From a virus, in IMG/VR virus record IMGVR_UViG_3300036781_000138, positions 1 to 40,513 of that record: 40,513 nt of DNA; one strand, 5' to 3'. The position numbers and the translations under genes were made by a program. The notes beneath the pieces were generated by a model. The model ran no database searches and was not told the origin of the DNA. It saw nothing but the letters and a program-made list of their open reading frames with translations. Numbering within the stretch: position 1 is the first letter of the stretch; every line of letters begins with the position of its first letter. This document shows positions 17,982 through 35,105 of the stretch, one piece after another.

Positions 17982-18006
17982 ATGATGTATCATTTATATA
18001 CATCAT
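17982..18006. promoter_or_regulatory. Operator-like inverted repeat (9-bp arms)
   Basis: ATGATGTAT, 7-base spacer, ATACATCAT: perfect arms, about 130 bp upstream of the Mor-like gene's promoter. TGAATGATGTAT, read on the minus strand, also occurs within the first codons of the Mor-like gene. Confidence 0.65.
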
Positions 18007-18110
18007 TCATTGCTAGAGAGAGGGTTTCCAATCGGTGTTTTGCCCGTCACCGCGTCACCCGAGCCGTTCAAGGCGTTGGGACGCAATGGTGAATGCATGA
18101 AGTCCGATGA

Positions 18111-18139
18111 TTCACACACGAGAACGCATCGTGTATGAT
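18111..18139 (+). promoter_or_regulatory. Sigma70-type promoter of the Mor-like gene, leaderless mRNA
   Basis: TTCACA (18111-18116), 17-bp spacer, TATGAT (18134-18139); each hexamer matches consensus at five of six positions. The predicted transcription start falls at or next to the ATG at 18146, so the mRNA would have no leader. The -35 lies in an inverted repeat, suggesting repression in the lysogen. Confidence 0.7.
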
Positions 18140-18145
18140 TGGTGC

Positions 18146-18559
18146 ATGTACGAATACATCATTCACAAGCCATTACCGGCACGGGCTCAGCTCGTGGCTG
18201 ACGTCATTGGACGTGAACGAACACTGTACCTCGTGCGCAATTGGAAGAAGACCCTCACGAGCAATCCGAAACAGCGTGAGTGGGTGTGCATCTACATCCC
18301 GAAGAAACTGCCGCTCGATCACGAGCTGGTAAAGGTCATGGGATGGCCCGATGCTGAGAAGCTGGTTCGTGCGTTCCGCGGCGAGATACTGACGCTGTCG
18401 AATTGCGCTGAGGTGGATCGCATGTGGCGCAATGCCTCGATCCGTCGACTGCACGACGAGGGCCATTCGACGGCAACGCTGGCCGAGTGGTTCGACATGA
18501 CCGACCGTCAGGTGCGCAACGTCCTGAAGGAAATGCCCATAGAGGCGACGATTCACTGA
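18146..18559 (+). CDS. Mor transcription activator family protein
   Basis: A 137-residue protein that fits the Mor/C family of phage Mu activators. It has an N-terminal dimerisation region (RAQLVADVIGRERTLYLVRN), a second similar unit (DHELVKVMGWPDAEKLVRAF) and a C-terminal HTH at about 108-128 (TATLAEWFDMTDRQVRNVLK). Mor dimers bind upstream of middle or late promoters and recruit RNA polymerase. Position just before lysis, packaging and structural genes suggests control of all late genes. An earlier in-frame ATG at 18107 lies upstream of the promoter -10 and is excluded. The 17-bp late repeat (copy 1) forms codons near its C terminus. Confidence 0.87.
   Translation: MYEYIIHKPLPARAQLVADVIGRERTLYLVRNWKKTLTSNPKQREWVCIYIPKKLPLDHELVKVMGWPDAEKLVRAFRGEILTLSNCAEVDRMWRNASIRRLHDEGHSTATLAEWFDMTDRQVRNVLKEMPIEATIH
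18529..18545 (+). repeat. Late-region 17-bp repeat, copy 1 (one mismatch)
   Basis: GGAAATGCCCATAGAGG, coding E-M-P-I-E at the end of the Mor-like gene. Followed by a stem-loop at 18568-18596 (CACTCCGCGC with GCGCG-T-GAGTG) that ends three bases before the holin-candidate ATG. Confidence 0.85.
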
Positions 18560-18599
18560 AGCCCCGACACTCCGCGCATTCGTTCGCGCGTGAGTGCAT

Positions 18600-18911
18600 A
18601 TGGACTTCGATAAGACCACCATCGGGCAGATTGCCGCCGGTATCGGCGCCTCTCTGTACCTCCTGCGTAAGACGTTGCTCTCCGACCGTGTAACGGCCGC
18701 AAACGACAACGCGCAAATCAACATGATTGCGAACCTTCAGGCCGAGCGAGACGCGGCTGTGAAGCGTGCTGACGAGGCAATCTCGCAGCGTGACGCCGTC
18801 ATGAGCGTGCTTAGCGATTTGAAGGTTCACATCGCGCAGCTTGAGAGCCAGGTCGAACGGCTCTCCGGCGAAGTGTCGGCACTTCGTGGCGAGGGTGGGG
18901 CGCACGCATGA
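18600..18911 (+). CDS. Holin candidate / coiled-coil membrane protein
   Basis: A 103-residue protein with one hydrophobic segment (IGQIAAGIGASLYLLRKTLL, about residues 8-27) and a long C-terminal coiled coil (AERDAAVKRADEAISQRDAV). It directly precedes the endolysin, overlapping it by four bases, which suggests holin or another lysis membrane role; a single-segment holin with a large coiled coil is unusual. ATG 18600 has no Shine-Dalgarno; a GTG at 18594 is possible. A strong stem-loop ends just upstream. Confidence 0.68.
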   Translation: MDFDKTTIGQIAAGIGASLYLLRKTLLSDRVTAANDNAQINMIANLQAERDAAVKRADEAISQRDAVMSVLSDLKVHIAQLESQVERLSGEVSALRGEGGAHA

Positions 18912-19408
18912 CGCGCGCTCTCACTGTCGACCCGAGCGGCGCGGGCTACCGCGTCGATGCATTTCTGGACGTGCTCGCGTACAGCGAGATTAAGCCGGCT
19001 CTCCTGGCTAAGTCCGACGATGGGTACAACGTCCTGGTCGGCAGCACGCCGAGCAAGCCGCTCCTGTTCACGGGCTACGACGACCATCCGCGCATTCTCA
19101 ACCGTGCCATGAACTCGACGGCCGCGGGTCGTTACCAATTCATCCGCGCGACGTGGGATGCGCTCGCTCGTCGTCTTTGCCTGGCGAACTTCGGGCCGCG
19201 TTGCCAGGACTTGGCATGCGTCGAGTTGCTGAAGGAAAACGGCGCGTACCAGGCCCTCATCGCCGGCGACTTCGACGAAGCGCTGCGTTGTGCTTCGCGC
19301 GATTGGGCAAGCCTTCCGTATTCGAAAGCGGGCCAGCCGACCAACACGGCTGCTTCGCTCCTGGTCGTCTACCAGGCGGCCGTCACCAAGTACCAGGCGG
19401 TGCATTGA
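18908..19408 (+). CDS. Lambda R-like endolysin (lytic transglycosylase)
   Basis: A 166-residue enzyme that cleaves peptidoglycan at the end of the cycle. It follows the lambda R pattern throughout: AFLDVLAYSE with catalytic Glu27, GYNVLVGST, FTGYDDHPRI, STAAGRYQFI, then a conserved DWASLPYSKAGQ ending. No signal peptide, so export depends on the holin. Overlaps holin candidate and Rz genes. Confidence 0.92.
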   Translation: MTRALTVDPSGAGYRVDAFLDVLAYSEIKPALLAKSDDGYNVLVGSTPSKPLLFTGYDDHPRILNRAMNSTAAGRYQFIRATWDALARRLCLANFGPRCQDLACVELLKENGAYQALIAGDFDEALRCASRDWASLPYSKAGQPTNTAASLLVVYQAAVTKYQAVH

Positions 19409-19785
19409 TGTTCGACCTGAAGACGTTGGAAAAGACCGCGGCAGTCGTCGCGCTCGCGGTGGCCCTGGCCGCCGCTTACTACACCGGCAAGCACGGTGCC
19501 GAAGAAGACGCGTTGACTGCCCAGGTCAAGGCCGTAGCGCAGCAGCGCAATGACGACGTTGCGGAGATGCAGCGCCGTCTCGACCAGACCACGGCGAACG
19601 CACGCATGGCCCAAGCCATCGCAGTCGCAACGGCTGTCGCCCAGGCAAAGCTCGACAGCGCCCACACCGATAACACCAAGGCGATCACCACCTATGTTCA
19701 AGCGCACCCTTCTACTGACGTCTGCACTCTTGATGATGACGGGTTGCGCCTCTGGCGTGCGGCCAATGCCGGCGTTGCCCCATGA
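19408..19785 (+). CDS. Rz-like inner-membrane spanin
   Basis: A 125-residue protein with an N-terminal transmembrane helix (about residues 10-27, AAVVALAVALAAAYYTG) and a periplasmic coiled-coil domain (AEMQRRLDQTTANARMAQAI). This is the i-spanin layout. It pairs with the overlapping lipoprotein to fuse inner and outer membranes at lysis. Start ATG at the endolysin stop (TGATG). Confidence 0.88.
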   Translation: MFDLKTLEKTAAVVALAVALAAAYYTGKHGAEEDALTAQVKAVAQQRNDDVAEMQRRLDQTTANARMAQAIAVATAVAQAKLDSAHTDNTKAITTYVQAHPSTDVCTLDDDGLRLWRAANAGVAP

Positions 19786-20095
19786 CAACGTCCACCTGAG
19801 CATCGACCCGAACATCATGCGTACGTACGACGAGCTGCCTCAGCCTGCCGACGGTCGCCTGTCGACGCTCATGCTCAACCACAACGACGTGGCCCACATC
19901 GCCAACTCGTGCCGCCTCGACCACAACGCCCTGATAGCGGCTATCGAAAGCCAGCAGGGCGTCGACATCAATGGCGGCCAACCCGTTGCGCCCCATGGGC
20001 CAGCGACTCCGGGCGCGGTCAATACCATGCCGACGCGTCGACCCGGTACAGAAAATGGGTCCTCCTCCGACCCCCATCCGCTGCGGCGTCCCTGA
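19694..20095 (+). CDS. Rz1-like outer-membrane spanin lipoprotein
   Basis: A 133-residue lipoprotein: signal peptide MFKRTLLLTSALLMMTGCAS with lipidation Cys18 (MTGC). It starts inside the Rz gene in a different frame, overlapping by 92 bp, the classic Rz/Rz1 nesting. It is longer than most Rz1 proteins; the C-terminal part from about residue 95 is Pro/Gly/Arg-rich. Confidence 0.85.
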   Translation: MFKRTLLLTSALLMMTGCASGVRPMPALPHDNVHLSIDPNIMRTYDELPQPADGRLSTLMLNHNDVAHIANSCRLDHNALIAAIESQQGVDINGGQPVAPHGPATPGAVNTMPTRRPGTENGSSSDPHPLRRP

Positions 20096-20174
20096 CACCG
20101 CGAGATTGTGTGTGTGGGTGGAGTTTCGAAAAGTGACTTTTTTAGTACGTATCCGCGAGGAAAGGCTGTAATTC
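20096..20174. other. Short gap before terminase, possible cos region
   Basis: Seventy-nine bases with a GTGTGTGTGGGTGG stretch and an AAAAGT-G-ACTTTT inverted repeat (20129-20141). In phages with Nu1/GpA terminases, cos lies directly upstream of the small subunit, so this stretch or the end of Rz1 is where to look. No clear cos sequence is recognised. Confidence 0.3.
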
Positions 20175-20723
20175 GTGGCAAAAGGGCGCGGCATCAAAGT
20201 AAATCGGCGCGACCTGGCGGCTACTTTCGGCGTCACCCCGCCGACCATTGATTCATGGGTCCGCCTGGGCGCTCCATTCGACGAGCGCGGGGCGGGGAAG
20301 GGTAAGCCCTGGGTCTTCGATACGGCCGACGTGTCGGCCTGGCTAGAGGCGCGTGCAGCGGCTGCGGCGCCTGGCGGTACGGCCAACGCAGACGCCGAAA
20401 CGCTGAAGCTCCGCAAGCTCTCCGCGGAGACGCAAATCGTCGAGCTTGCGCTTGCCAAGGATCAGGAGCTTGTCGCTCCGCTCGACCAGGTAGAGCGAAC
20501 CCTAACGCGCCTCTTTGCCCAGGTGCGCGGAAGCCTGCGGAACATTCCTTCCCGATGCGCCTCCCTGGTCGTCGGCGAGAACGACGAACGGAAGATTAAG
20601 GCGACGCTCCTCGCTGAGGTCGACCTGGTGCTGGAGGCATTGGCGAAGTTCGACCTATTGGCCGACCCCGACGCTGAGGACGACGACGAAGCCACGGACG
20701 ACGAGACCTACGACGATGCTTAA
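20175..20723 (+). CDS. Terminase small subunit (Nu1-like)
   Basis: A 182-residue protein. The N-terminal winged HTH (VNRRDLAATFGVTPPTIDSW) binds phage DNA at the packaging site. The central helices contact the large subunit, and the C terminus is very acidic (PDAEDDDEATDDETYDD). GTG start at 20175 after GAGGAAAGG. Works with TerL to start packaging. Confidence 0.9.
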   Translation: MAKGRGIKVNRRDLAATFGVTPPTIDSWVRLGAPFDERGAGKGKPWVFDTADVSAWLEARAAAAAPGGTANADAETLKLRKLSAETQIVELALAKDQELVAPLDQVERTLTRLFAQVRGSLRNIPSRCASLVVGENDERKIKATLLAEVDLVLEALAKFDLLADPDAEDDDEATDDETYDDA

Positions 20724-22806
20724 CACCAGCCTCAAACCGAATCCCTCCGGCGTCCGCCGCGCGGTCAGGGCCGCGCTTCGCATGTTCATGCCGCCGCCGG
20801 ACGTTAAGGTCTCCGAGTGGGCCGAGGCAAACCTCGTGATCCCCGAGGGCAACGCCAAGCCTGGCCCGTTCCGCCTGGCGAACGCGCCGTACCAGCGCGA
20901 ACCCATGGATATGTTGAATCACCCGGATTGCCGTCGGGTGACGTTGAAATGGGGCGCTCAGGTGGGCAAGACCTTGCTTGCGCTATGCATGCAGGGCTTC
21001 AGCATCGCGTCAACGCCCACGTCGCAGATGATGATGCAGCCGTCGCAAGGCGACCTGCAAACGTGGCTCGAAACGAAGTTCACGCCCATGGTCACGGCCA
21101 ACGCCGAGCTGAACAAGCTCTTGGCGAAGCCGCGTGGCCGCGAAGGCGTCAACAACCAGCGCATGAAGTCGTATCCCGGCGGCTTCATGATGTACGCCTG
21201 GGCCGGTTCGCCGAAGACCATGCGCGGCCGATCCGCACCGCTGATCGTGTGCGACGAGGTCGACGGTTACCAGCGCACGAAGGAAGGTCACCCAGTTGGT
21301 CTCCTCTGGCAGCGTTCCGCCACGTTCGGCGATCAGCGCTTCCTACTGGAGATTTCCACGCCCACGACGAAGGGCGAAAGCTACATTGACGACGCATACG
21401 AGGCGGGCGACCAGCGCCGTTTCTATGTCCAGTGTCCCGACGCCAATTGCCTGCACGAGCAAACACTGGACTGGTCGAACGTATCGTGGGTGGGTCGCCG
21501 CGACACCCACGAGGAAATTCTCGCCCACATCGACGAGCAGGAGCCGGAAACGGCTTGCTACGTCTGCAATGACTGCGGGATGCAGTGGGGTGACGGCGAG
21601 CGAGCCGCGGCGATCCGCAATGCGGAATCTGTCGGTGCCGGCTGGCGTGCATCGCGGCCGTTCAAGGGCCACGCTTCGTATCACCTCAACGAGCTGTATT
21701 CGACGTTCCGCAAGCTGCGCGACGTCGTGCAGGACTACCTCGACAAGCTGAAGACGGACGATCTTCAGACGTTCACGAACGTGTGTCTCGCAGAGACCTA
21801 CGAGGAAAAGGGCGAGAAGGTCGACGCTACTGGCCTCATGGCGCGTACGGAGCTGTACGCGGCCGACGTGCCCATGCGCGGCATCTACCTGACCGCCGGT
21901 ATCGACATGCAGCCCGATCGCCTGGAGGTCGAGACCGTCGCCTGGGCCGAGAACGAGGAATCGTGGTCAATCGACTACAAAGTGTTGTGGGGCGACCCGC
22001 TCGTTGGCGACGTGTGGGACGACCTCGACGATTACCTGGCAAGTGGCTTTCAGCACGAATCCGGGATGATCCTTCCTATTGCAGCAGCGTGCCTTGATAC
22101 CGGCGGCAACAAGGGCTACACGCAGCGAGCCTATGACTACTTGAAGGGCAAGACCGGCCGTCGCCTGTTCGGCATCAAGGGCGTGGGCGGATGGGGTCGC
22201 GCTGTCGCGGAAAGCCCGCAGCGCAAGCAGTCGGGCAAGAACGCCCGAAAGATCGACCTGTTCCTGGTGGGCACGGACGAGGCGAAGAAGATCGTTATGC
22301 GTCGCCTGGGAATCGTTCGTCCCGAGGGCACGCCTGAAGACACGGCGATTCCTGGTCTTTGCCATTTCCCCGCGGGTCGCGATCCCGAATGGTTCAAGCA
22401 GATCACGGCCGAGAAGCTGATTACCCGTTACGTGAAGGGTCAGCCGGTACGCACCTGGGAGAAGCCCGACAAGGCACGAAACGAGGCGCTTGACTGCCGC
22501 GTGTACGCGCTTGCCGCCCTGAAGATCATGGCGCCGAACCTGCACCGCGTCGCGCTGAAGATCGCCGCGTATCGCAAGCACGCTGCGCCGAAAACGTTCT
22601 CCCAAACAGTGGCAGATACCGCCGTGAAACTACACGAAACGCTTACCGCGCTGGCCGATGAAGGCAAGCGCCAGGACGAAACCCCGAGCGCGGAAATCCC
22701 CATAGAGGCCCCCGAGGACACCTCTACGCAAACTGCGCGCGTGTTCCACACACGACGGAAGCTCAAGGGCGGCCGCAAATCGGGGAACTTCGCAACGAAA
22801 TGGTGA
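20716..22806 (+). CDS. Terminase large subunit (GpA family)
   Basis: A 696-residue packaging motor. ATPase: Walker A-like GAQVGKT at 80-86 and Walker B with Asp180-Glu181 (LIVCDEVDGY). A zinc-ribbon-like Cys set lies near residues 240-290. The nuclease domain starts near 390 with Asp397 (TAGIDMQPDRLEVE). This matches lambda GpA, which cuts cos DNA. Overlaps TerS by 8 bp. The 17-bp repeat (copy 2) encodes EIPIE in the variable C-terminal tail. Confidence 0.95.
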   Translation: MLNTSLKPNPSGVRRAVRAALRMFMPPPDVKVSEWAEANLVIPEGNAKPGPFRLANAPYQREPMDMLNHPDCRRVTLKWGAQVGKTLLALCMQGFSIASTPTSQMMMQPSQGDLQTWLETKFTPMVTANAELNKLLAKPRGREGVNNQRMKSYPGGFMMYAWAGSPKTMRGRSAPLIVCDEVDGYQRTKEGHPVGLLWQRSATFGDQRFLLEISTPTTKGESYIDDAYEAGDQRRFYVQCPDANCLHEQTLDWSNVSWVGRRDTHEEILAHIDEQEPETACYVCNDCGMQWGDGERAAAIRNAESVGAGWRASRPFKGHASYHLNELYSTFRKLRDVVQDYLDKLKTDDLQTFTNVCLAETYEEKGEKVDATGLMARTELYAADVPMRGIYLTAGIDMQPDRLEVETVAWAENEESWSIDYKVLWGDPLVGDVWDDLDDYLASGFQHESGMILPIAAACLDTGGNKGYTQRAYDYLKGKTGRRLFGIKGVGGWGRAVAESPQRKQSGKNARKIDLFLVGTDEAKKIVMRRLGIVRPEGTPEDTAIPGLCHFPAGRDPEWFKQITAEKLITRYVKGQPVRTWEKPDKARNEALDCRVYALAALKIMAPNLHRVALKIAAYRKHAAPKTFSQTVADTAVKLHETLTALADEGKRQDETPSAEIPIEAPEDTSTQTARVFHTRRKLKGGRKSGNFATKW
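22692..22708 (+). repeat. Late-region 17-bp repeat, copy 2
   Basis: GGAAATCCCCATAGAGG, exact, in the TerL C-terminal tail; followed by an inverted repeat that begins in the motif (TAGAGG 22703-22708 with CCTCTA 22721-22726). Confidence 0.88.
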
Positions 22807-22809
22807 TGA

Positions 22810-23361
22810 ATGTCCGTCAGCACAAACCAGCATGTACCGGCAACGGCGACGGCTGGCCTAAGCCTGACTTTCGTTCTCGCCCTTCGTGACTTCCCTGCAC
22901 CGCAGTGGAGCGCAATGCTCCTCCTGCGCGGTCCTTCGAAGGCCGATATCGAGGCGACCGCGGCAGGTGCGGAACACGCGTTCAACGCCGACGCCGAACT
23001 GACGGCCGAGTGGAAGCCTGGCCTTCACTGGTACAGCGTCCGCGTATCGAGCGGCGATGATGTCCGCGAGGTCGGGAAGGGGCAAATCGATGTCCTTCCC
23101 GACTTCGCGAACCTCCCCGCCGGCTACGACGGCCGCACACAGAACGAAATCGCGCTCGATTCGATCCTTGCCGTGCTCGCGAAGCGCGCCACGCAGGATC
23201 AGATGCGTTACACGATCGACAACCGCGAGTTGTGGCGCACACCGATCAACGACTTGTTGGCGCTCAAGGCGTCCTATGTGGCAGCCGTGCGCCGGGAACG
23301 AGCGAAAGCTTCGGGCCGTAGCCGGTTCGGCCGCGCAATCCCTGTGAGGTTCAGCTCATGA
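22810..23361 (+). CDS. Head protein between TerL and portal (gpW-like C terminus)
   Basis: A 183-residue protein. The N-terminal half is beta-rich (LSLTFVLALRDFPAPQWSAM). The C-terminal 60 residues (IDNRELWRTPINDLLALKAS, then YVAAVRRERAKASG) resemble the small gpW head-completion protein that lies at this genome position in lambda-like phages. Overlaps the portal gene by four bases. Role in head completion is inferred. Confidence 0.72.
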   Translation: MSVSTNQHVPATATAGLSLTFVLALRDFPAPQWSAMLLLRGPSKADIEATAAGAEHAFNADAELTAEWKPGLHWYSVRVSSGDDVREVGKGQIDVLPDFANLPAGYDGRTQNEIALDSILAVLAKRATQDQMRYTIDNRELWRTPINDLLALKASYVAAVRRERAKASGRSRFGRAIPVRFSS

Positions 23362-24932
23362 AACTCCCGCGCCTGTTCGGCCGCTCCGCAGTAGCGTCGA
23401 CCGAAGCCCTGCCGAAGTCCATCGCAGAGAATCCGGCGAAGCCGCGTCGAAGCTTGCTGGCCCGCTCTCTGTCGTCCATGTTCAAGTCCGCGCAGTCGAA
23501 TCCTAACGACAAGTGGACGTCGATTTCCGTCTCCCCGGACGCGTTCATCACGCAGATGCAGCCCGTTCTCGTCGCCCGCTCGCGCGAGCAGTGGAGCAAC
23601 AACGACTACGTTCGCAACTTCATTCGCCTGGTGCGGCAGAACATCGTCGGCGCGACCGGCATCAAGATGCAGGCCAAGGTAAAGAAGCCGCGTGGTGCGC
23701 TCGATCAGGACGCGAATTCGGCTATCGAGTCGTCATGGGTCGAGTGGGGTACACCCGGTAACTGCGAAGTCACCGGAACGCTTTCGTGGCGTGCGGTGCA
23801 GGAGCTTTGCGCCGAGACCACCGCGCGAGACGGCGAGTTCATCATTCGGTATATCTACGGCGAAGACGCCGGTCCGTTCGGCTTTGCCCTCCAGCTCATC
23901 GACCCGCAGCGTCTTATGACGCGTTACGACGTCGACAACTATGGCAACGATGGTTCGTTCATCCGCCACGGCATCGAGTTCAACCGATACGGCCGACCCA
24001 CTTTCTACCACTTCACGAGCACTGACGAGCGGGACGCGCGGTTCTACACGATCAACTGCCGCGGTTTCGTTCGCGTCCCTGCCGACCAGATCCTCCACCG
24101 CTTCCGCGTGGAAATGGTCGGGCAACGCCGCGGCCTCCCCTGGACGTCCACGTCGCTGTCGCGCCTGCACCACCTGTCGGGCTTCGAAGAAGCCAGCGTG
24201 CAGAACGCGCGCGCCACCGCGACGAAGATGGGCTTCATTGAGTACGAAAAGGGCTTCGGTCCCGAGGCGGACGACGACGTAGACGTCGCATCGACCATCG
24301 AAGCCGAGCCCTTGTCGTTCCACGAGCTGCCCGAAGGCGCAAAGCTCGCAGAGTGGAATCCGGTCTATCCAGGCGGCGAGTTCGCGACCTTCACGAAGGC
24401 AATGCTGCGCGGTGCCGCTGCCGGTTGGGGCGTTCTTTACAACAACGTCGCAGGCGACCTGGAGGGAGTGAACTTCTCAAGCATTCGCCAGGGCACGCTC
24501 GACGAACGCGACCACTGGAAAGCACTTCAGCAGTGGATGACGGAAGCGCTGATCGTCCCCGTGTACGAGGCATGGCTCAAGGTCGCGCTTCTGAAAGGCG
24601 CTATCACGAACAAGGGTAAACCCTACAGCGCTGATCGCCTGAAGGACTTCCGCGCCGTTGCATGGCAGGGCCGTCGCTGGACGTGGATCGACCCGCGGGC
24701 CGACGTTGCGTCCGCTCTCGACTCCATCCGTGGCGGCCTCGCGTCTGCAAGCCAGGTCATTCGCGAGTCGGGGCGCGACCCGAACGAGGTCTTCCGTGAA
24801 ATTGCTGAAGACCTGGGGCAGATGAAGGAAGCCGGGATTCCCGAGAAGTACATCGAGCTGTTCATGAATGGCGTACCCACGCCGCCGAAGCCGGCGCAGC
24901 CGGCCGATACCAAAGAGGAAGTAACCGCGTGA
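23358..24932 (+). CDS. Portal protein (lambda B family)
   Basis: A 524-residue portal that forms the dodecameric DNA channel at one head vertex. Family landmarks: REQWSNNDYVRNFIRLVRQN near residue 75, ETTARDGEFIIR near 155, QLIDPQRL near 180, and ADQILHRFRVEMVGQRRGLP near 240. The C-terminal tail is Pro/Ala-rich. Overlaps its two neighbours by four bases. Confidence 0.95.
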   Translation: MKLPRLFGRSAVASTEALPKSIAENPAKPRRSLLARSLSSMFKSAQSNPNDKWTSISVSPDAFITQMQPVLVARSREQWSNNDYVRNFIRLVRQNIVGATGIKMQAKVKKPRGALDQDANSAIESSWVEWGTPGNCEVTGTLSWRAVQELCAETTARDGEFIIRYIYGEDAGPFGFALQLIDPQRLMTRYDVDNYGNDGSFIRHGIEFNRYGRPTFYHFTSTDERDARFYTINCRGFVRVPADQILHRFRVEMVGQRRGLPWTSTSLSRLHHLSGFEEASVQNARATATKMGFIEYEKGFGPEADDDVDVASTIEAEPLSFHELPEGAKLAEWNPVYPGGEFATFTKAMLRGAAAGWGVLYNNVAGDLEGVNFSSIRQGTLDERDHWKALQQWMTEALIVPVYEAWLKVALLKGAITNKGKPYSADRLKDFRAVAWQGRRWTWIDPRADVASALDSIRGGLASASQVIRESGRDPNEVFREIAEDLGQMKEAGIPEKYIELFMNGVPTPPKPAQPADTKEEVTA

Positions 24933-26821
24933 ACAAGCTCGCTACTCGCTTGCAGGAAATCAAGGAGCGCGGCGGCCTTCGCCGAGAAGCCACGTTTGGC
25001 GCTGTCGACATCGAAGCTCGTACGGTCGAGCTGTCGTTTTCGTCTGAAATCGAATACCCGCGGTGGTTCGGCATCGAGGTGCTGTCTCACGATGCTGCGG
25101 CCGTCAATCTTGCACGACTCAACGACAGTGCTGCGCTTCTGTGGAACCACGATTGGGACGACATGCGGGGTGTCGTGGAGCCAGGCACCGCGCGAATCGA
25201 CAGTGACCGCAAAGGCCGCGCCCTCGTTCGCTTCAGCAAGAGCGCCGATGGCGAAAAGCTCATGCATGACGTCGACGACGGCATCGTCACGAAGGTTTCA
25301 GTCGGGTACGAAGTCAACGGCATGAAGTGGGTCGAGGAGCGCGCCGACACCGATGTTTACCTGGTGACGGATTGGGCTCCCTACGAGCTGTCTTTCGTGA
25401 GCGTGCCGGCCGACCACACCGTAGGCGTCGGACGCGCCGCGGAAATCCCCATAGAGGGCGCGGCAAAGCCATCTGACCAAACTTTGCCTGTAGTCGCAGA
25501 ACCCACCACTATCGAGGCAACCAGGTCCATGACCGAAGAAGAGCGTAAGGCACAGGAAGAGGCGCGCCGCCAGGCGGACGCCGCAGCACGAACCGCCGGA
25601 AGCGAAGGCGAGCGCAATCGCGTGCGATCCATCGGCGAAATGGGCAAGCAGTACGGTCACACCGACCTGGCCCTCCAGTTCATTAGCGAAGGAAAGTCCG
25701 CCGACGAGTTTCAGCGCGCTCTCCTGACGGCGATGAACCAGCACGTCAACAAGCCGCTGGACGAGCAGGTCCGTGCCGCGGAAATCGGTCTTACCGAGAA
25801 GGAAGCGGGCAACTTCAGCTTCCTGCGCGCGATCCGCGCTCAGCTCCCGAACGCCACGAAGGCCGACCGCGAAGCGGCTCGCTTCGAAATGGAATGCTCG
25901 CGCGCTGCCGAGCAGACCTATGGCAAGACCGCAAAAGGCATCCTCGTGCCGGCCGACGTGCTGAACCAGCGCACGTTCTCCACCACGACGCCGGCCGGTG
26001 GCTCCGGTGCGAACCTGGTTGCAAGCCAGCTTCTCGCGGGCTCGTTCATCGAAATGCTGCGCGCCCGTACCTGGCTGATGCAGCGTGCGACCGTCATCGG
26101 CGGCCTGGTCGGCAACATCGACATTCCGCGCCAGAAGGCTGGCAACACGGCCTATTGGGTCGGTGAAGGTAACGGTCCCGCCAAGGGCGAGCCGGCCATG
26201 GACCAGGTGCAGTTCTCGCCGAAGGAACTGGCAGCTCTGACCGAAATCACGCGCAAGTTGATGAAGCAGGCGACGCCGGACGCCGAGAACATCGTGCGTA
26301 ACGACCTGATCCGCGCGATGGCCCTGGGCATCGATCGCGCCGGTATCTATGGTTCGGGTACGGCTTTCCAGCCGCTCGGCGTCGCGAACATGACCGGCGT
26401 CAATGCGGTTGCGCTTGCCACCGCCGGCCAGCCGTCGTTCGACGAGCTGGTGGACATGGAAACCGCTATCGCGCTCGACAACGCCGACGTCGGCGCCATG
26501 TCCTACGCCTTCAACGCCGCCGTCCGTGGCTCGCTGAAGAAGACCAAGCGTTTCCCGGACAGCGCGAGCGACGCGACCATCTGGGAGCAGGGCAACACGG
26601 TAAACGGCTACGCCACCGACGTTTCGAACCAGATCGATTCGGGTGATGTCCTGTTCGGCAATTGGGCTGACCTGATTATCGCCATGTGGGGCGGACTGGA
26701 TATCACGGTCGATCCGTTCACCCTGGCTGATACCGGCGGTACGCGAATCATCACGTTCCAGGATATCGACTGCAACGTGCGCCACCAGGAGTCGTTCTGC
26801 CTGGGTCGCAAGGCCGCTTAA
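24929..26821 (+). CDS. Fused HK97-type prohead protease and major capsid protein
   Basis: A 630-residue fusion. Residues about 10-165 are a U35-type prohead protease with His74 (LLWNHDWDD) and Ser124 (TKVSVGYEV). Residues about 200-320 form a helical delta/scaffold-like region, and about 325-630 an HK97-fold capsid (PAGGSGANLVASQLLAGSFI; AALTEITRKLMKQATPDAEN; RAMALGIDRAGIYGSG). The 17-bp repeat (copy 3) encodes EIPIE in the linker after the protease. An internal ATG at 25529 (residue 201, MTEEER) with GAGG 11 bases upstream could make separate capsid chains. GTG start overlaps the portal stop. Confidence 0.93.
   Translation: MNKLATRLQEIKERGGLRREATFGAVDIEARTVELSFSSEIEYPRWFGIEVLSHDAAAVNLARLNDSAALLWNHDWDDMRGVVEPGTARIDSDRKGRALVRFSKSADGEKLMHDVDDGIVTKVSVGYEVNGMKWVEERADTDVYLVTDWAPYELSFVSVPADHTVGVGRAAEIPIEGAAKPSDQTLPVVAEPTTIEATRSMTEEERKAQEEARRQADAAARTAGSEGERNRVRSIGEMGKQYGHTDLALQFISEGKSADEFQRALLTAMNQHVNKPLDEQVRAAEIGLTEKEAGNFSFLRAIRAQLPNATKADREAARFEMECSRAAEQTYGKTAKGILVPADVLNQRTFSTTTPAGGSGANLVASQLLAGSFIEMLRARTWLMQRATVIGGLVGNIDIPRQKAGNTAYWVGEGNGPAKGEPAMDQVQFSPKELAALTEITRKLMKQATPDAENIVRNDLIRAMALGIDRAGIYGSGTAFQPLGVANMTGVNAVALATAGQPSFDELVDMETAIALDNADVGAMSYAFNAAVRGSLKKTKRFPDSASDATIWEQGNTVNGYATDVSNQIDSGDVLFGNWADLIIAMWGGLDITVDPFTLADTGGTRIITFQDIDCNVRHQESFCLGRKAA
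25441..25457 (+). repeat. Late-region 17-bp repeat, copy 3
   Basis: Exact copy in the protease-capsid linker, in the same reading frame as copies 1 and 2. Followed by GGCAAAG (25462-25468) and CTTTGCC (25482-25488) as an inverted repeat, then the candidate internal capsid start at 25529. Confidence 0.88.
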
Positions 26822-26837
26822 CCGGCAACGAAGCAAC

Positions 26838-26861
26838 AACGGCCGCCGATCGGCGGCCGTT
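26838..26861 (+). terminator. Strong palindrome after the capsid gene, possible attenuator
   Basis: Perfect 24-bp palindrome with 12-bp arms beginning AACGGCCGCCGA, followed by CTTCC. The T-tract is weak, so partial termination or mRNA 3' end protection for the abundant capsid message is more likely than full termination. Confidence 0.6.
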
Positions 26862-26885
26862 CTTCCATCCATGAGGTGAATTGCA

Positions 26886-27218
26886 GTGTCCGTAAAGACC
26901 TTTACCCTGAAGCTCCTGAGTGCGATCGTCGTTGCCGGCGAGGTGATTACCCGCGGTAGTCTCGTCGAGCTTGCCGAATCGGAAGCGAAGCACCTGCTGT
27001 CCCGCGGCAAGGCTCGCCTTGCTACCGAAGACGACGCGGTAGCCGTTGTGAAGCAGCCGGCGCCCGAGGCCGCAGCTCCGTCGCTGCCCGAGAAGCCCGC
27101 CACGCCCGCCGCGCCCGCTGCCGAAGCCACCGCCGAGGCCGATACCCCGAAGGACGCTCAGCGCGCCGCTCAGGGCGTCGACAGCACGATCGCGACGACC
27201 GATCAGGCCGCCGCGTAA
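26886..27218 (+). CDS. Hypothetical head-region protein, Ala/Pro-rich tail
   Basis: A 110-residue protein. The first 45 residues form a small barrel-like domain (TFTLKLLSAIVVAGEVITRG, then LVELAESEAKHLLSRGKARL) often found next to capsid genes; the rest is Ala/Pro/Glu-rich and likely disordered. GTG start at 26886 with GAGGTG upstream. Possible head decoration or connector accessory. Confidence 0.75.
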   Translation: MSVKTFTLKLLSAIVVAGEVITRGSLVELAESEAKHLLSRGKARLATEDDAVAVVKQPAPEAAAPSLPEKPATPAAPAAEATAEADTPKDAQRAAQGVDSTIATTDQAAA

Positions 27219-27562
27219 TGCCAATCCCGTCGTTCGACGACCCGCGCGACTTCCTGGACGACTTCGCGGTGCGCGTCACCGTGACGCCGGCCAATGGTGA
27301 CGGGTCGTCGTTCGACGTGACTGGCTTGTTCGACGAGAAGTACCAGGGTGTGAACCTGGGCGACTTTCAGATGCAGGCGGCGCCGCGTCCGCGGTTCAAG
27401 TGCATGGCCGTCGACGTGGCAAGCCTGAAGAAGTACGACGCGGCCGTTGTGCACGACGATGACCTGAAGACGTCGACCGATTATTTCCTCGAGCACGACC
27501 CGGCTCCCGACGGCTACGGCTACGCGATCCTGTTCCTGGCTCGCGACACCGACGGCGTTTAA
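27218..27562 (+). CDS. Head-tail joining protein (FII-like, by position and fold)
   Basis: A 114-residue beta-rich protein (FAVRVTVTPANGDGSSFDV; VNLGDFQMQAAPRPRF; DYFLEHDPAPDGYGYAILFL). Size, position after capsid and the DPxPDGxGxxxLxL ending fit head-tail attachment proteins in phages with this capsid. Its stop codon lies in the CGTTTAAACG palindrome. Confidence 0.75.
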   Translation: MPIPSFDDPRDFLDDFAVRVTVTPANGDGSSFDVTGLFDEKYQGVNLGDFQMQAAPRPRFKCMAVDVASLKKYDAAVVHDDDLKTSTDYFLEHDPAPDGYGYAILFLARDTDGV

Positions 27563-27565
27563 ACG
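27556..27565. repeat. CGTTTAAACG palindrome, copy 4
   Basis: Contains the TAA stop of the head-tail joining gene; its last base is the first base of the next gene's GTG start. Confidence 0.8.
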
Positions 27566-28131
27566 TGCTGACCGCAAGCGTAGACGTCGAGTCGCTTAAC
27601 CGCGCGATAGTCAGTTGCCAGGCGACGGAAGCCCAGGCACGGAAGGCGCTCAACAGCACGATGGTGAAGATGGCCGCATGGGTGCGTACGCGTACCCTCC
27701 GCGGCCTTTCGGCCAAGCTGAAGATTCAGCAGCAGATACTTCGCCGCCGCGTGCGTACGTTCCGCATGGGAGGCGCGCTGAGCCACGCGCAGGGCGACGG
27801 TTCGGTAAAGGTGTGGTTCGGCCTTAACCCGATCCCGTGGGGCGACCTGAAGCCACGCCCCATGGGCAATGCCGGCGTGATCGCGGCAGGCGGACGGCGT
27901 GACGAGCACGCATTCATTCTGGATCAGTCGACGAAGGGCGGTCGCAATGTGCGTCGCGTCATGAAGCGCGAAGGCAAGGGGCGCTTGCCGCTCATTGAGC
28001 TGAAGGCGCTTATCGGCGACGAGGCAACCGAGTACCTGAATCACTACATCACTGCGAGCGCCGAGTTCGGCGACCAGTTCATGCGTACATTTGAAAGGGA
28101 GCTGAAGTGGCGGACATCGACCCGAGCCTAG
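27565..28131 (+). CDS. Minor tail protein Z-like / tail completion protein
   Basis: A 188-residue basic protein with the pattern of GpZ/HK97 gp10-like proteins: an N-terminal helix, SAKLKIQQQILRRRVRTFRM, KVWFGLNPIPWGDLKPRPM, HAFILDQSTKGGRNVRRVMK and the final FERELK. It is thought to fit the neck or tail end. GTG start at 27565; overlaps next gene by 25 bp. Confidence 0.8.
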   Translation: MLTASVDVESLNRAIVSCQATEAQARKALNSTMVKMAAWVRTRTLRGLSAKLKIQQQILRRRVRTFRMGGALSHAQGDGSVKVWFGLNPIPWGDLKPRPMGNAGVIAAGGRRDEHAFILDQSTKGGRNVRRVMKREGKGRLPLIELKALIGDEATEYLNHYITASAEFGDQFMRTFERELKWRTSTRA

Positions 28132-28670
28132 ACTACGACCGATTTTGCGACCAGGTCGAGGCCGAGATTAAGCAGAAGTTTCCCGCGTTCAAAACAGTGG
28201 TTTTCGACCTGGACGACGAGAGCGAAGACATCGCTACGCCTGCTGTCTTGCTGGAGATATGCGAGGCAGAACCCGATGACGGCGCCCAGGCAGGTACGGG
28301 GCAGCTCCCGGCGCTATTGCGCGTAGAGGCCCGCATCATCATGGGGGTACGCACTCCCCAGGTTAAGCGAGCCGTACGCAAGGCCGCACTCGCACTTGCT
28401 GGATGGCTGCACCTCAAGCGGTGGGACGGCGTCATCGCGGACCCCGCGCGCATCCTCGCGTGCTCCCCGGACGAGTTCGACCCGCGCCTGGACAAGTGGG
28501 CCGTGTGGCGCGTCGAGTGGCATCACCGTGTGTTCGTGGGCGAAGCGTACGACGATCCCGACCTGAATCACGGCGGTGTCCCTACGGCTTTCTTCAGCTT
28601 CTCGCCCGACATCGGCATCCCGAGCCAGGGCGACTACCAGCAGCTCCCAGGGGGCGCCGCCAATGCATGA
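28107..28670 (+). CDS. Tail terminator-like / Gp37-like protein
   Basis: A 187-residue protein resembling short-chain tail terminators of Mu- and P2-like phages by size and by VLLEICEAEPDDG plus repeated beta strands. GTG start at 28107 inside the previous gene. The function is inferred from its place between the Z-like neck protein and the baseplate spike. Confidence 0.65.
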   Translation: MADIDPSLDYDRFCDQVEAEIKQKFPAFKTVVFDLDDESEDIATPAVLLEICEAEPDDGAQAGTGQLPALLRVEARIIMGVRTPQVKRAVRKAALALAGWLHLKRWDGVIADPARILACSPDEFDPRLDKWAVWRVEWHHRVFVGEAYDDPDLNHGGVPTAFFSFSPDIGIPSQGDYQQLPGGAANA

Positions 28671-29268
28671 GCACGCTTTCGTAACCGGCGAGCATGGCCG
28701 AATGATCGCGTGCCTGGCGATGATCGGCACCGTTAACCAGCTCGACGAGGCTAACGCCAGGGTGACCGTCGACGTCGACGACATGACGACGGACTGGATT
28801 CCGTGGGGCACTCGTCGGGCGGCTGGCGACAGCGACTGGTGGGCGCCTGAACCAGGTGAACAGGTTCTCGTCGTGAGTCCATATGGCGACCCGTCCCAGG
28901 GCGTCGTGGTGTGCTCGATCTTCCAGGATGGCCACCCGGCGCCCGCCAACGTGAAAACCATCTGGCGCAAGCGGTTCGCCGATGGCTCGACGGTGTCGTA
29001 TGACCGCGCGGCGCACGCCATGACGGTCGACGTAGGCACCGGCACCGTTACGGTGAACTGTGACCAGGCCACCGTTAAGGCGGCCACGTCGGTGACGCTC
29101 GACGCACCTACAACGCATGTGATGCACGACCTGGTCGTTGATGGCAACACTAAACTGAATGGCAACACTGCCGTGAAGGCGATCACGTCCAACGGTGTAA
29201 ATATCAGCGATAGCCACTTCCACGGAAACGGAAACGGCGGCGCCCCGACGACGAAAGTCCAGGGCTGA
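28663..29268 (+). CDS. Baseplate spike protein V
   Basis: A 201-residue P2 gpV-like spike. It has an N-terminal OB-fold (IGTVNQLDEANARVTVDVDD; PGEQVLVVSPYGDPSQGVVV) and a C-terminal triple beta-helix with repeated short strands (TVTVNCDQATVKAATSVTLD). It ends with HFHGNGNGG, similar to iron-binding tips (HxH) of membrane-piercing spikes. Overlaps the previous gene by eight bases. Confidence 0.9.
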   Translation: MHEHAFVTGEHGRMIACLAMIGTVNQLDEANARVTVDVDDMTTDWIPWGTRRAAGDSDWWAPEPGEQVLVVSPYGDPSQGVVVCSIFQDGHPAPANVKTIWRKRFADGSTVSYDRAAHAMTVDVGTGTVTVNCDQATVKAATSVTLDAPTTHVMHDLVVDGNTKLNGNTAVKAITSNGVNISDSHFHGNGNGGAPTTKVQG

Positions 29269-29269
29269 C

Positions 29270-29286
29270 GGAAATCCCCATAGAGG
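29270..29286 (+). repeat. Late-region 17-bp repeat, copy 4
   Basis: Exact copy, intergenic, two bases after the V stop. Its last bases begin the hairpin at 29285. Confidence 0.88.
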
Positions 29287-29319
29287 CCGCGCAACGCGGC
29301 CTTGCCGATCATTCGGCAA
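29285..29319 (+). other. Two tandem hairpins up to the start codon of W
   Basis: GGCCGCG-CAA-CGCGGCC (29285-29301) and TTGCCGA-TCAT-TCGGCAA (29302-29319), back to back. The A of the W ATG is the last base of the second stem. There is no T-tract and no Shine-Dalgarno, so control of translation or RNA stability is likely. Confidence 0.75.
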
Positions 29320-29657
29320 TGAATGGGATGAATGCGTCCACCGGTAAGCCTCTCAGTGGCATTGAACACTGCAAGCAGAGTGTGCGCGACATCCTGAGCA
29401 CTCCAAAGGGATCGCGCGTGATGCTGCGCGCCTATGGAAGCGACCTGTTCACGATGGTGGATAGGCCGATGAACCAGTCGACAAAGATGGACATGGTCGC
29501 CGCGACTACCGACGCGCTTGCGTTGTGGGAACCACGCATCCGCGTGACGAACGTGAGCTTCAGCGTGACCCCTGGCGGCCAGGTGACCGTCGACGTCACC
29601 GGGCAGTACAAGCCCGATGGGCAGGAAATCACTATCCCCGGAATCGTGGTGAAGTAA
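29319..29657 (+). CDS. Baseplate protein W (gp25-like)
   Basis: A 112-residue P2 gpW/T4 gp25-like protein: GIEHCKQSVRDILSTPKGSR, YGSDLF, then ALALWEPRIRVTNVSF. It is part of the baseplate wedge that nucleates sheath contraction. ATG 29319 lies in a hairpin; ATG 29328 is an alternative start. Confidence 0.9.
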   Translation: MNGMNASTGKPLSGIEHCKQSVRDILSTPKGSRVMLRAYGSDLFTMVDRPMNQSTKMDMVAATTDALALWEPRIRVTNVSFSVTPGGQVTVDVTGQYKPDGQEITIPGIVVK

Positions 29658-30538
29658 TGGCAGGCGTAGACCTTTCGAAACTCCCTTCGCCTGATGCTAT
29701 CGAAACGATCAGTTACGACGACATCAAAGCGCAGATCATTGCCGCCCTTGGGCCCGACTATCAGAACATGGTGGAGTCGGACCCAGGCATGAAGGTGGCC
29801 GGAATCGCCGCTTATCGCGAAACGCTGGTGCGCAAGCGGGCGAACGACGCCGTACGAGCGTGCATGCTCGCCTTTGCACGGGAGGCCGACCTCGACCAGC
29901 TCGGGGCGAACAACGACGTTCCGCGCCTTGTCGTCACGCCTGGCGACCCTAACGCCAGCCCTCCTATTCCCGATGTGATGGAGGAGGACGAGCCCTATCG
30001 GGCACGCATCCAGCTATCGTTTGAGGGATACACGACCGCGGGTAGCGACGGCAGCTATCGATTTCACGCGCTGTCCGCGACGGGCAAGGTTATCGATGTC
30101 AAGCCGCTATCGCCGTCGCCTGGCGTCGTTGACGTGTACGTACTGTCGAACGAGGGCAACGGCACGCCGTCTCAGGCGACGCTCGACGCCGTGACGGCCG
30201 CGCTGTCTGCCGAACTTGTCCGCCCCATGACGGACAACGTCAACGTTAAGCCGGCCGATATCGTCGAATACGAAATCGTCGCCGAGCTAACCCTGTATCC
30301 GGGGCCGGATAGCTCCGTCGTACTCGGGGCATCGGAAGAAAAAGCGCAGGCGTACGCCGATAGCATCCAGCGGCTCGGCTACGACGTGAGCCTGTCGGGT
30401 ATCGATGGCGCGCTACACCAGCCTGGCGTACAGAACGTCGTACGCACGTCTCCCGCTTCGTTCATCGAAATTGCGGATAACCAGGCGTCCTACTGCACGA
30501 AGATAACCGTAACAGTAGCGTCTCAGACCGATGACTGA
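29657..30538 (+). CDS. Baseplate protein J
   Basis: A 293-residue P2 gpJ-like baseplate wedge protein: N-terminal helices with AAYRETLVRKRANDAVRA and AFAREADLDQLGANN, then a beta domain (YRARIQLSFEGYTTAGSDGS). Starts in the W stop (TAATG) and overlaps the I gene by eight bases. Confidence 0.93.
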   Translation: MAGVDLSKLPSPDAIETISYDDIKAQIIAALGPDYQNMVESDPGMKVAGIAAYRETLVRKRANDAVRACMLAFAREADLDQLGANNDVPRLVVTPGDPNASPPIPDVMEEDEPYRARIQLSFEGYTTAGSDGSYRFHALSATGKVIDVKPLSPSPGVVDVYVLSNEGNGTPSQATLDAVTAALSAELVRPMTDNVNVKPADIVEYEIVAELTLYPGPDSSVVLGASEEKAQAYADSIQRLGYDVSLSGIDGALHQPGVQNVVRTSPASFIEIADNQASYCTKITVTVASQTDD

Positions 30539-31067
30539 GAGCCTTCTCCCACCGAATGCGACGCCATTCGAGATAGCGCTGGAAGGCGCTACCGCACGCC
30601 TTGGCGCAGTGCCGGTTGAAATCATCGCAACCATGCAATCGCCGCAGAACTGCCCCGCCGAAATCCTCCCGTGGCTTGCGTGGGCCTTCAGCGTCGACGA
30701 TTGGGACGACACCTGGAGCGAGGCTCAGAAGCGCGCGACCGTTGCCGCCTCGTACCAGGTCCACCGGCATAAGGGAACGATCGGCGCGGTGCGCGCAGCG
30801 CTCGCCGCCCTGGGCATTCAGATCGACGTCGTCGAGTGGTTCCAGGAGTCGCCGCCAGGTGATCCGTACACCTTCCGATTGAGCGTGGGCATCGACCAGG
30901 ACGGGGTCAGTCAGCAGCAATACGCGCGAATCCTCAGCGTCGTGAATTCATCGAAAAACCTCCGATCACACATGACGTCCGTGGACGTTGAGATTGCGAC
31001 GCGATCCGACCTGTTCATGGCCGCGGCTACGGGCGTCGGCTTCAACATTTGCGTACTTCCTGGGTAA
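30531..31067 (+). CDS. Tail protein I
   Basis: A 178-residue P2 gpI-like baseplate protein: SLLPPNATPFEIALEGATAR, CPAEILPWLAWAFSVDDWDD, SYQVHRHKGTIGAVRAALAA. Bridges baseplate and fibre in P2-like tails. Follows the J-I-H gene order. Confidence 0.93.
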   Translation: MTESLLPPNATPFEIALEGATARLGAVPVEIIATMQSPQNCPAEILPWLAWAFSVDDWDDTWSEAQKRATVAASYQVHRHKGTIGAVRAALAALGIQIDVVEWFQESPPGDPYTFRLSVGIDQDGVSQQQYARILSVVNSSKNLRSHMTSVDVEIATRSDLFMAAATGVGFNICVLPG

Positions 31068-31070
31068 CCG

Positions 31071-32660
31071 ATGCAGACCTATAAGACAATCCTCACGAAT
31101 AAGGGCCTCGCGCTCTCGGCTTCGTCTGATACGAGCGGGAAGCCGCTCGCGCTCTCGCACATGGCGATCGGCGACGGCGGTGGTAATGCGACCACGCCTG
31201 ACCCGGCGCAGACTTCGCTTGTCCGTGAGGTCTATCGGGACGTCATTAGCAACATTACGCCTAACCCGAACGTCCCCGGCCAGTTCACGGCTGAGGTCAA
31301 CGTACCGTCTTCTGTCGGCGGATTCACGATCCGAGAGGCGTGCATTCTGACCACCGACGGCGACCTTTTCGCAGTGTGCAACACCCCGGCGACTTACAAG
31401 TCCACGCTTTCCGAAGGCTCGTTCGGCGACGGGACCGTGAAAATGGTTTTCCAGCTAGCGAACGCGGCGACGGTCAACCTTTCCATTGATACGTCGATCG
31501 TTATGGCGACGCGTCAGTGGGTGGTGAACAACATCACGTCGGCGGCGATCCTTCCTGGCGGGCTCACGCACCAGATGCTTTCGAAGAAGTCGAACGCGGA
31601 CGGCGATGTCGTGTGGGTCGACCCGAGCGCGGCTGTCCAGGTCATTGTCGACACCATCGAAGAAACTCAAACGCTCGCAGCGAATCAGTTGCTTGTGAAC
31701 CTCACGAAGGTTACGACGTCGGCGCTCGCTGTTTATGTCAACGGTACGCGTTTGATGGCGAGCGAGTGGGCGGAAACGACTGCAACCCAATTTTCTCTTA
31801 CGAAGACGTATGCCGCCGGAACGAAGGTCACCGCCGTGCAGAACGAGCAGACGGGACAGACCGACGTACTCCGGCGCGCAAACAATCTTTCTGACGTCGC
31901 CAATCCGGCTACGTCGCTAGCCAATCTAGGGGGCGTAGCGAAGACGGGCGGAGCGATGGCCGGCGCTCTCGCGCTGTTTGGTGGCGATACGGGCGTAACG
32001 CCTCCGCAGTTCGACCGCGATACGTCTCTCGCAACGACCGAGTTCGTGCAGAACGTCGGCGAGCACTACGCGGGCGTCTTCCCGTTCCAGGCAAATACCG
32101 CGCTCAACTCGACCCACGTTGGCTCGTTTGTTTACGCCTACGGAAACACTGCACTCACGTTTGCCATGCCTGCGGCGGCGGGGCTACAGGCAGGCGTATG
32201 CCTTACCATCTTGAATGCGTCGTCCTTCCCGCTCTCCCTGAGCGCACCGACGAACACTCACTTCAACTTCGGTCAGACGCAGCTTGATACCGTCATTTTG
32301 CAGTCGGGCGACTCCATCACGTTCACGCTTGTGGGCAGCTCGTGGTTCGCGGCAGGCGGGAACGGCATGGATCAATATTCCACGTCTTTCTATCGCGGCA
32401 CCGGCTACCAGAAGCTACCTAGCGGCTTCATCATCCAATGGGGCATTCAGCCGACGAACACGGGCGGCGACACCGTTGTGACGCTCCCGCTCGCGTTCCC
32501 GAATGGCCCCGTCTCTCTTTCCGTAACGGCATCCATCGTTAGTAGCGTGGGCTATGCCAACTATTGGAACTTTCTCAAGACGAGTTTCAACATGAACTCG
32601 TGGAGCAACGCAGGCACGCGCCTTGCGACACAGAACGCGTGGATCGCAATCGGGTACTAA
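31071..32660 (+). CDS. Tail fibre protein (H-like)
   Basis: A 529-residue fibre. The N-terminal 150 residues match the P2 H/phage tail-collar attachment region (YKTILTNKGLALSASSDTSG; LALSHMAIGDGGG). Then a shaft region with NNLSDVANPATSLANLGGVA repeats and a GGDTGVTPPQFDRDTSLATT segment. The C terminus, from about 445, is a gp53-like receptor domain (GYQKLPSGFIIQWG; VVTLPLAFPNGPVSLSVTAS). It determines the host range. Confidence 0.92.
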   Translation: MQTYKTILTNKGLALSASSDTSGKPLALSHMAIGDGGGNATTPDPAQTSLVREVYRDVISNITPNPNVPGQFTAEVNVPSSVGGFTIREACILTTDGDLFAVCNTPATYKSTLSEGSFGDGTVKMVFQLANAATVNLSIDTSIVMATRQWVVNNITSAAILPGGLTHQMLSKKSNADGDVVWVDPSAAVQVIVDTIEETQTLAANQLLVNLTKVTTSALAVYVNGTRLMASEWAETTATQFSLTKTYAAGTKVTAVQNEQTGQTDVLRRANNLSDVANPATSLANLGGVAKTGGAMAGALALFGGDTGVTPPQFDRDTSLATTEFVQNVGEHYAGVFPFQANTALNSTHVGSFVYAYGNTALTFAMPAAAGLQAGVCLTILNASSFPLSLSAPTNTHFNFGQTQLDTVILQSGDSITFTLVGSSWFAAGGNGMDQYSTSFYRGTGYQKLPSGFIIQWGIQPTNTGGDTVVTLPLAFPNGPVSLSVTASIVSSVGYANYWNFLKTSFNMNSWSNAGTRLATQNAWIAIGY

Positions 32661-32668
32661 GGGAAAAC

Positions 32669-33253
32669 ATGGGCCAGAAATTCGCAGCATACGACGCGCA
32701 GGGCGTAATTAACGGCTTCTACGATAGCGCCGATAGCCCCCTACCAGATGGCGTCGCCGCCATCGCGATCACTGCCGATCAGTGGTTTGCGTGTATCACA
32801 ACGCCTGGATACGTCGTGCGTAACGGCGTGCTCGTTGCGCCGACCCCGCTAACTGACGCGGAAAAGCTCGCCGCGCTTCAGCCAGCGCTTTGCGTTGAGA
32901 TCGACGCCGCCGCCGATGCGGCATATGTGGCTATTGGCGGCTCAAGCCCTGGACGATTGGCCGAGTATCAGCAGGCAAGCACGGACGCGAACGCCTATCG
33001 TGCCGCAGGTTACGACGGGACAATCCCCCCGACCATTCTTTGCCAGTGCATCGCGTCGGGACAGACGCCGCAGCAGGCGACGGACGACATCATCGCCATG
33101 GCTACCGCTTGGAACCAGGCGCTAGTCGCTATTCGATCCGCTCGCCTCATCGGTAAGTCAAAGGTGAATGCGTCGACGACCAGCGTTGATGCGCAAGCCC
33201 AGGCTGACGCGGCGATGGCGAACATCATGGCAGTTGCAAGCGCGACAGAATAA
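32669..33253 (+). CDS. Tail-fibre-associated / assembly-like protein
   Basis: A 194-residue protein following the fibre. The start resembles fibre assembly proteins (KFAAYDAQGVINGFYDSADS; ITADQWFACITTPGYVVRNG). The C-terminal half is helical and Ala-rich, with no known motif. Likely chaperone for fibre trimerisation (P2 G position). Start ATG 32669 after GGGAAA. Confidence 0.78.
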   Translation: MGQKFAAYDAQGVINGFYDSADSPLPDGVAAIAITADQWFACITTPGYVVRNGVLVAPTPLTDAEKLAALQPALCVEIDAAADAAYVAIGGSSPGRLAEYQQASTDANAYRAAGYDGTIPPTILCQCIASGQTPQQATDDIIAMATAWNQALVAIRSARLIGKSKVNASTTSVDAQAQADAAMANIMAVASATE

Positions 33254-33255
33254 CC

Positions 33256-33272
33256 GGAAATCCCCATAGAGG
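33256..33272 (+). repeat. Late-region 17-bp repeat, copy 5
   Basis: Exact copy, intergenic, three bases after the fibre-assembly stop; followed by the terminator-like hairpin before the sheath gene. Confidence 0.88.
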
Positions 33273-33285
33273 GACCAGGTGCATG

Positions 33286-33329
33286 AAGCCCGGAAGATTG
33301 ATGTTGTCCCATCAATCACCGGGCTTTTT
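33286..33329 (+). terminator. Terminator-like hairpin two bases before the sheath start codon
   Basis: Two-part stem: AAGCCCGG with CCGGGCTT and, inside, GATTGAT (33296-33302) with ATCAATC (33311-33317), loop GTTGTCCC, then TTTTT. By rule it is a good Rho-independent terminator, yet the sheath ATG follows at 33332. In P2, the sheath starts its own transcription unit at this place. Confidence 0.8.
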
Positions 33330-33331
33330 GC

Positions 33332-34537: not shown

Positions 34538-34540
34538 GCC

Positions 34541-35047: not shown

Positions 35048-35063
35048 TCCGAACCAACATCAA

Positions 35064-35086: not shown

Positions 35087-35105
35087 ATCATTTCAGGGAA
35101 TCAAC

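Follow-up and report, generated by a model that had tools for sequence, protein, structure and literature searches.

A repeated 17-bp element as the probable operator of a Mor/C-like activator in the bipartite late promoters of a phage group

In phage P2, activator-dependent late promoters precede V/W and the sheath gene FI, and the activator Ogr is a zinc-finger protein whose short dyad site lies near -55, unlike the 17-bp operator described here. In phage Mu, the C-dependent late promoters have non-consensus -10 and -35 elements (PMC4461284; PMC4287176), with the C sites lying upstream of or overlapping the -35 position (PMC4461284), and the Mor site spans -51 to -36, centred at -43.5 (PMC4287176). 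Here we describe a 17-bp element that recurs through the late region of a viral sequence record 40,513 bases long, which was analysed over its whole length and is called the window below. With a probability that we put at about nine in ten, this element serves the phage's Mor/C-like activator as its operator and, as such, makes up one of the two parts of a late promoter. Late control of this phage group seems to be unstudied, and the literature searched, as far as it was accessible and with the Murka, Arya and KIRK papers included, does not describe such a motif, although it may be described elsewhere.

The window carries a tRNA-Cys (46-119) followed by a gene that we read as an integrase (194-1393), and a profile search of its proteins against Pfam identified the terminase and portal as lambda-like, the tail genes as P2-like and the protease and capsid as a fusion. 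The gene for the Mor/C-like late transcription activator, listed at 18107..18559 on the + strand with a product of 150 residues, lies directly upstream of the lysis genes. The 17-mer GGAAATCCCCATAGAGG occurs five times, always on the + strand, with four identical copies and one, GGAAATGCCCATAGAGG, with a single mismatch. This mismatched copy, the site of the lysis promoter (18529..18545), lies within the 3' end of the activator gene; the second (22692..22708) is in the C-terminal tail of the terminase, the third (25441..25457) in the linker between protease and capsid, the fourth (29270..29286) between the gpV-like and gpW/gp25-like genes, and the fifth (33256..33272) upstream of the sheath gene. 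The preliminary description had reported five copies on the coding strand with only the first one mismatched, and its coordinates proved to be exact, as did its account of the junctions that host them and of three coding copies in one frame (KEMPIE, AEIPIE, AEIPIE) next to two intergenic ones. Counting with up to 3 mismatches still yields only these five copies, whereas 100 shuffled sequences averaged 0.03 and none of them reached five, so the motif is clearly enriched over the shuffled control.

What kind of conservation is this? At the three coding junctions the operators keep one reading frame in nearly every phage, encoding an E-x-P-x-E type peptide, while the genes themselves are unrelated. 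Conservation of the 17-mer at the protein level can be ruled out, since two copies are intergenic and the spelling shifts in step across non-homologous genes. It is probably because the compact late region has no gap that three operators lie inside coding sequence. A dyad operator can be ruled out as well: in all 17 genomes compared, the best dyad in the 17-mer is no better than in shuffled letters (p 0.38-1.0).

Palindromic repeats were encountered separately. In the early region of the window, a 14-bp sequence that is a perfect palindrome, GTTACGCGCGTAAC, is present at four positions grouped as two close pairs (12760, 12797, 14608 and 14631), with 0.29 occurrences expected in the window at up to 2 mismatches, and its core recurs 2-4 times in three relatives (L018, L052 and L079); it is possibly an operator or a parS-like site. 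A ParB-like protein is apparently encoded at 7533-8444. The ep3-like genomes (L105-L140; KA2-1, ep3, Alux-21 and ECOO78) contain 4-6 copies each of another palindrome, ACAATCATTGT.

To what extent is the 17-mer shared? Terminase relatives were searched for repeats without the window's motif as input, and activator-bearing phages were then read as whole genomes. Many terminase relatives carry a word of 12-19 bases at the terminase end (for example GGAAATCCCACAAGAGG, GGAAAAAGCGCCAGAGG, GGAACCACTGCCAGCGG and TGACAAACCCCAAGAAG), which recurs approximately 2.2-2.9 kb further on in the protease-capsid region and approximately 6.5-7.4 kb further on before gpW. A de novo repeat search of the activator-bearing phages likewise brought out such words in Mica, Murka, Persinger, PPpW-3, Mano and the ep3-like phages, where most have five copies; MQ-4, ECOO78 and others also have words of their own at these junctions. 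The five junctions are the end of the activator gene before lysis, the terminase end, the protease-capsid linker, the gpW start and the sheath start, and at these, which a scan of related phages had been proposed to examine, a relative usually has five sites spelled with its own 17-mer. Copies differ at 0.87 of 17 bases within a genome, as opposed to 6.13 when one junction is compared across genomes. The most degenerate copy in the relatives is the one at the activator junction, which would serve lysis (mean 1.31 mismatches, versus 0.12-0.59 elsewhere); in Arya it was not found within 4 mismatches, and in one genome (G004) the gpW-junction copy was not found. The hosts of these relatives include Escherichia, Enterobacter, Klebsiella, Serratia, Pseudomonas, Xanthomonas, Burkholderia, Achromobacter and Acinetobacter. 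A megablast of the window's late region against phages gave no match, nor did a search for close relatives among viral contigs with the activator protein.

The exact 17-mer, on the other hand, is not common to other phages, since its database matches are scattered, single and chance-like: three single matches in IMG/VR, the inspected one of which (L002) has an unrelated gene context, and 46 among 84,980 genomes. The earlier statement that nothing known matches the sequence thus holds for the exact word, apart from such isolated matches, and misses that each relative has a spelling of its own, which is the very reason why the exact word matches nothing known. For the same reason, the proposal that the copies are linkers for homologous exchange of phage modules, with no regulatory role, is hardly credible in spite of their position at module boundaries: a sequence private to each phage, differing at 6.1 of 17 bases between relatives, offers no shared homology for exchange, and its coupling to a -10 element (below) would be left unexplained.

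Namely, a -10-like hexamer begins 20 bases past each copy, and in all five window copies its second base is A and its sixth T; the preliminary description, which had listed a shared inverted repeat after each copy, overlooked this real second element. The hexamers, all on the + strand, are GACACT (18566..18571), CAAACT (22729..22734), CAAACT (25478..25483), GATCAT (29307..29312) and GAAGAT (33293..33298). For the first, the predicted start is A18578, upstream of the gene read as a holin, which starts at 18594, and for the second it is G22741, upstream of the head-tail joining gene starting at 22810. The hexamers were first spotted by eye in the window and then tested on relatives' sites picked by the 17-mer alone. 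In the window, not one of 200,000 random draws of five positions had ANNNT in all five at one offset, for any of 60 offsets. Among 83 sites in 17 genomes, ANNNT stands at that exact offset in 74, while other offsets give a mean of 3.5 and a maximum of 16; it should be noted that the genomes are related, so that their sites do not count as 83 separate events. Exceptions that lack the -10 at the offset include the capsid copy of one genome (G003) and the activator copy of another (G004). The columns that stand out, numbered from the end of the 17-mer, are A+22 (74/83), A+24 (52/83), A or C+25 (82/83) and T+26 (75/83). In 21 further loci the -10 is found at the offset in 53 of 59 sites, and in 58 of 59 if one base either way is tolerated. 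If the hexamer is placed at -12 to -7, position +33 becomes exactly +1, and a purine stands there in 74% of the 83 sites from the 17 genomes. In this numbering the operator spans approximately -49 to -33, centred at -41. The hexamer consensus, as read from the sequences, is mostly [G/C]ANN[A/C]T, and the -35 position shows no consensus. Indeed, a sigma-70 promoter scan of 17800-36000 picked up none of the five predicted promoters, all of which lack a recognisable, TTGACA-like -35 at 16-18 nt from the -10.

Which protein would read these sites? The window activator matches PHROG 836, annotated as late transcriptional activator, with an E-value of 2.8e-26, and Pfam Mor with 23.3 bits, under the cut-off of 24.9, which is passed by the Murka homologue (32.5) and by the distant homologues of YPCBV-1 (50.9) and B23 (43.4). 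Of 24 aligned activator proteins, 11 match Mor at E<=0.01. Proteins from 34 phage records share approximately 35-47% identity with the window protein. Its predicted model (pLDDT 85.7) gives only HTH-like PDB matches in Foldseek, none at E<=0.001, and sequence searches for a Mor structure found none. The true start of its gene is probably the ATG at 18146 rather than the listed 18107. A good sigma-70-like promoter, TTCACA-17-TATGAT (18111-18146), overlaps the listed start of the gene, and transcription from it is predicted to begin with the A of the in-frame ATG at 18146, a better fit to the conserved N-terminus; going by these positions, the activator mRNA of the window phage may be leaderless.

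Covariation points to the activator as the reader of the sites. Taken pair by pair, operator distances correlate with activator HTH distances at r = 0.48, compared with 0.24 for the N-terminal part of the activator and 0.25 for the terminase; the partial correlation of operator and HTH given the terminase is 0.42 (0 of 5000 permutations), and that of operator and terminase given the HTH is 0.04. In particular, the helices DRQVRN and DRHVRN go with GGAAAT.., ERTVKR with GACA.. and EKWVTA with GGAACC... These data bear on the strongest alternative, in which the sites are late promoters read by another phage protein or by a host sigma factor or activator, the Mor-like gene being adjacent by chance. 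The lack of dyad symmetry in the operator and the activator's Pfam Mor score under the cut-off would both fit such a reading, but the site varies among phages and tracks the activator HTH over general relatedness, while a host factor would be expected to dictate one spelling per host. What is more, the activator gene accompanies the motif in nearly every locus with enough upstream sequence, one exception (L059) having approximately 6 kb upstream. We therefore consider a different reader improbable.

Phages with a different late regulator provide a natural control. In the Hapunavirus genomes VP882 and phiHAP-1 the late genes stand in the same order, with an annotated Q-like antiterminator in place of the activator, and the repeated promoter element is absent from them: over four junctions they show no shared 17-mer, with 15 and 14 mismatches, like random regions, as opposed to 0-1 mismatches for activator phages in the same test. 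The repeat is likewise absent from a locus (L051) with 10 kb of upstream sequence and no activator match there.

This control also speaks against the idea that the element acts in RNA, be it as a put/nut-like antitermination site or through its AGAGG end recruiting a ribosome by way of a hairpin, since the element is absent from precisely those phages that have a Q-type antiterminator. Every copy is on the coding strand and a strong hairpin comes after the one at the sheath gene, as such an element would have it. However, the claim that an inverted repeat follows each copy did not survive: within the 60 nt after it, only the sheath copy folds above shuffled sequences (z -5.3), the other four giving z of -0.8, -0.4, +0.2 and -1.2, so a common hairpin is absent. 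Furthermore, a terminator-like hairpin stands just ahead of the sheath copy in most relatives, which places this copy outside the upstream transcript, the element is upstream of the predicted transcription start, and an RNA element would leave the fixed -10 spacing and the purine at +1 unexplained. A role in RNA is thus very improbable. Of the three hypotheses offered initially, the RNA element and the exchange linkers, the sites of the latter being phage-specific and coupled to the -10, are disfavoured, and that of late promoters or activator sites for the Mor-like protein is strongly supported by the fixed-spacing -10, the purine at +1, the shared junctions, the covariation with the HTH and the absence from syntenic Q-type phages.

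In the activator-operator reading, three promoters deserve closer attention. The fourth is predicted to start at 29319, the A of the ATG of the gpW/gp25-like baseplate wedge gene (29319..29657, + strand), for which a Shine-Dalgarno sequence is absent (+0.3 kcal/mol). A gpW site is present in 16 genomes, and in every one of them the ATG follows the last T of the -10 by 7 or 8 bases and the operator by 33 to 35, so that transcription is predicted, from these positions, to start on the ATG or one base before it; this agreement is partly inheritance, the loci being homologous. The gpW Shine-Dalgarno averages -2.0 kcal/mol in these genomes, and the other Mica late genes average -4.4. The ATG being fixed to the -10 and the Shine-Dalgarno weak, the gpW mRNA is predicted to be leaderless, and gpW could be translated from read-through mRNA as well.

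The third promoter concerns a single ORF (24929-26821) that encodes both the prohead protease (Peptidase_S78, residues 55-164) and the major capsid protein (Phage_capsid, residues 360-626), and it is predicted to lie inside the linker. From its predicted start, G25490, the next in-frame ATG is at 25529, from which the capsid part could be made without the protease, raising capsid over protease. As for the fifth, whose predicted start is T33305 and whose sheath gene begins with the ATG at 33332, it overlaps a terminator-like hairpin (33285..33328, + strand; -30.9 kcal/mol, z -5.3), whose left arm contains the -10 and whose loop contains the predicted start. For this reason the new sheath transcript cannot form the hairpin, the sequence from 33305 onward folding with just -3.0 kcal/mol. 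In most relatives a hairpin with a T-run, an annotated terminator in Mica, stands immediately upstream of the operator, and we read the sheath junction there as the place where the upstream transcript ends and a new one begins.

The sites, the -10, their spacing, their conservation and their covariation with the activator are read directly from the sequence. From these we infer that the activator binds to the sites, that initiation occurs at the predicted bases and that the timing is late. In other words, each promoter would consist of a 17-bp activator site, a 20 bp spacer and a -10-like hexamer; the activator would bind all five and recruit host RNA polymerase, and the lysis, head-joining, capsid, baseplate and sheath/tail operons would be turned on together. 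An unexplained repeat would thereby become a readable late-promoter code for a widespread phage group, with definite predictions, namely exact starts, a leaderless mRNA for a structural gene and a promoter nested in a terminator. Because each phage re-spells all its operators with its HTH, the group is also a natural series for the coevolution of activator and site. On balance we favour the view, with somewhat more confidence than doubt, that there is a whole group of myophages, temperate and lytic, with one Mor/C-like activator, a private, concertedly evolving and asymmetric 17-bp operator and a conserved leaderless gpW mRNA.

How does this arrangement compare with the described systems? The late operons contain P2-like tail genes, as in the Ogr system. 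With Mu C and Mor the window shares the use of one site ahead of each of several late operons, and this site overlaps the -35 position at a fixed distance from the -10; the operator is without the dyad symmetry reported for Mor and C sites, and formal membership of the Mu C/Mor class is incomplete because of this, because the protein is below the Pfam cut-off and because its model match is insignificant. As with the C-dependent promoters Plys, PI, PP and Pmom, one small HTH activator would serve several late operons, lysis included. Unlike these, the five window promoters lie amid lambda-type terminase and capsid genes and P2-type tail genes rather than in a Mu genome, their operators are asymmetric, near-identical among copies and in three cases within genes, and the gpW promoter is predicted to start at the ATG. 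Finally, compared with Mor at the Mu promoter Pm, the protein similarity is distant (Pfam Mor) and the window has several late promoters, while the position of the site is similar, -51 to -36 in Mu and approximately -49 to -33 here.
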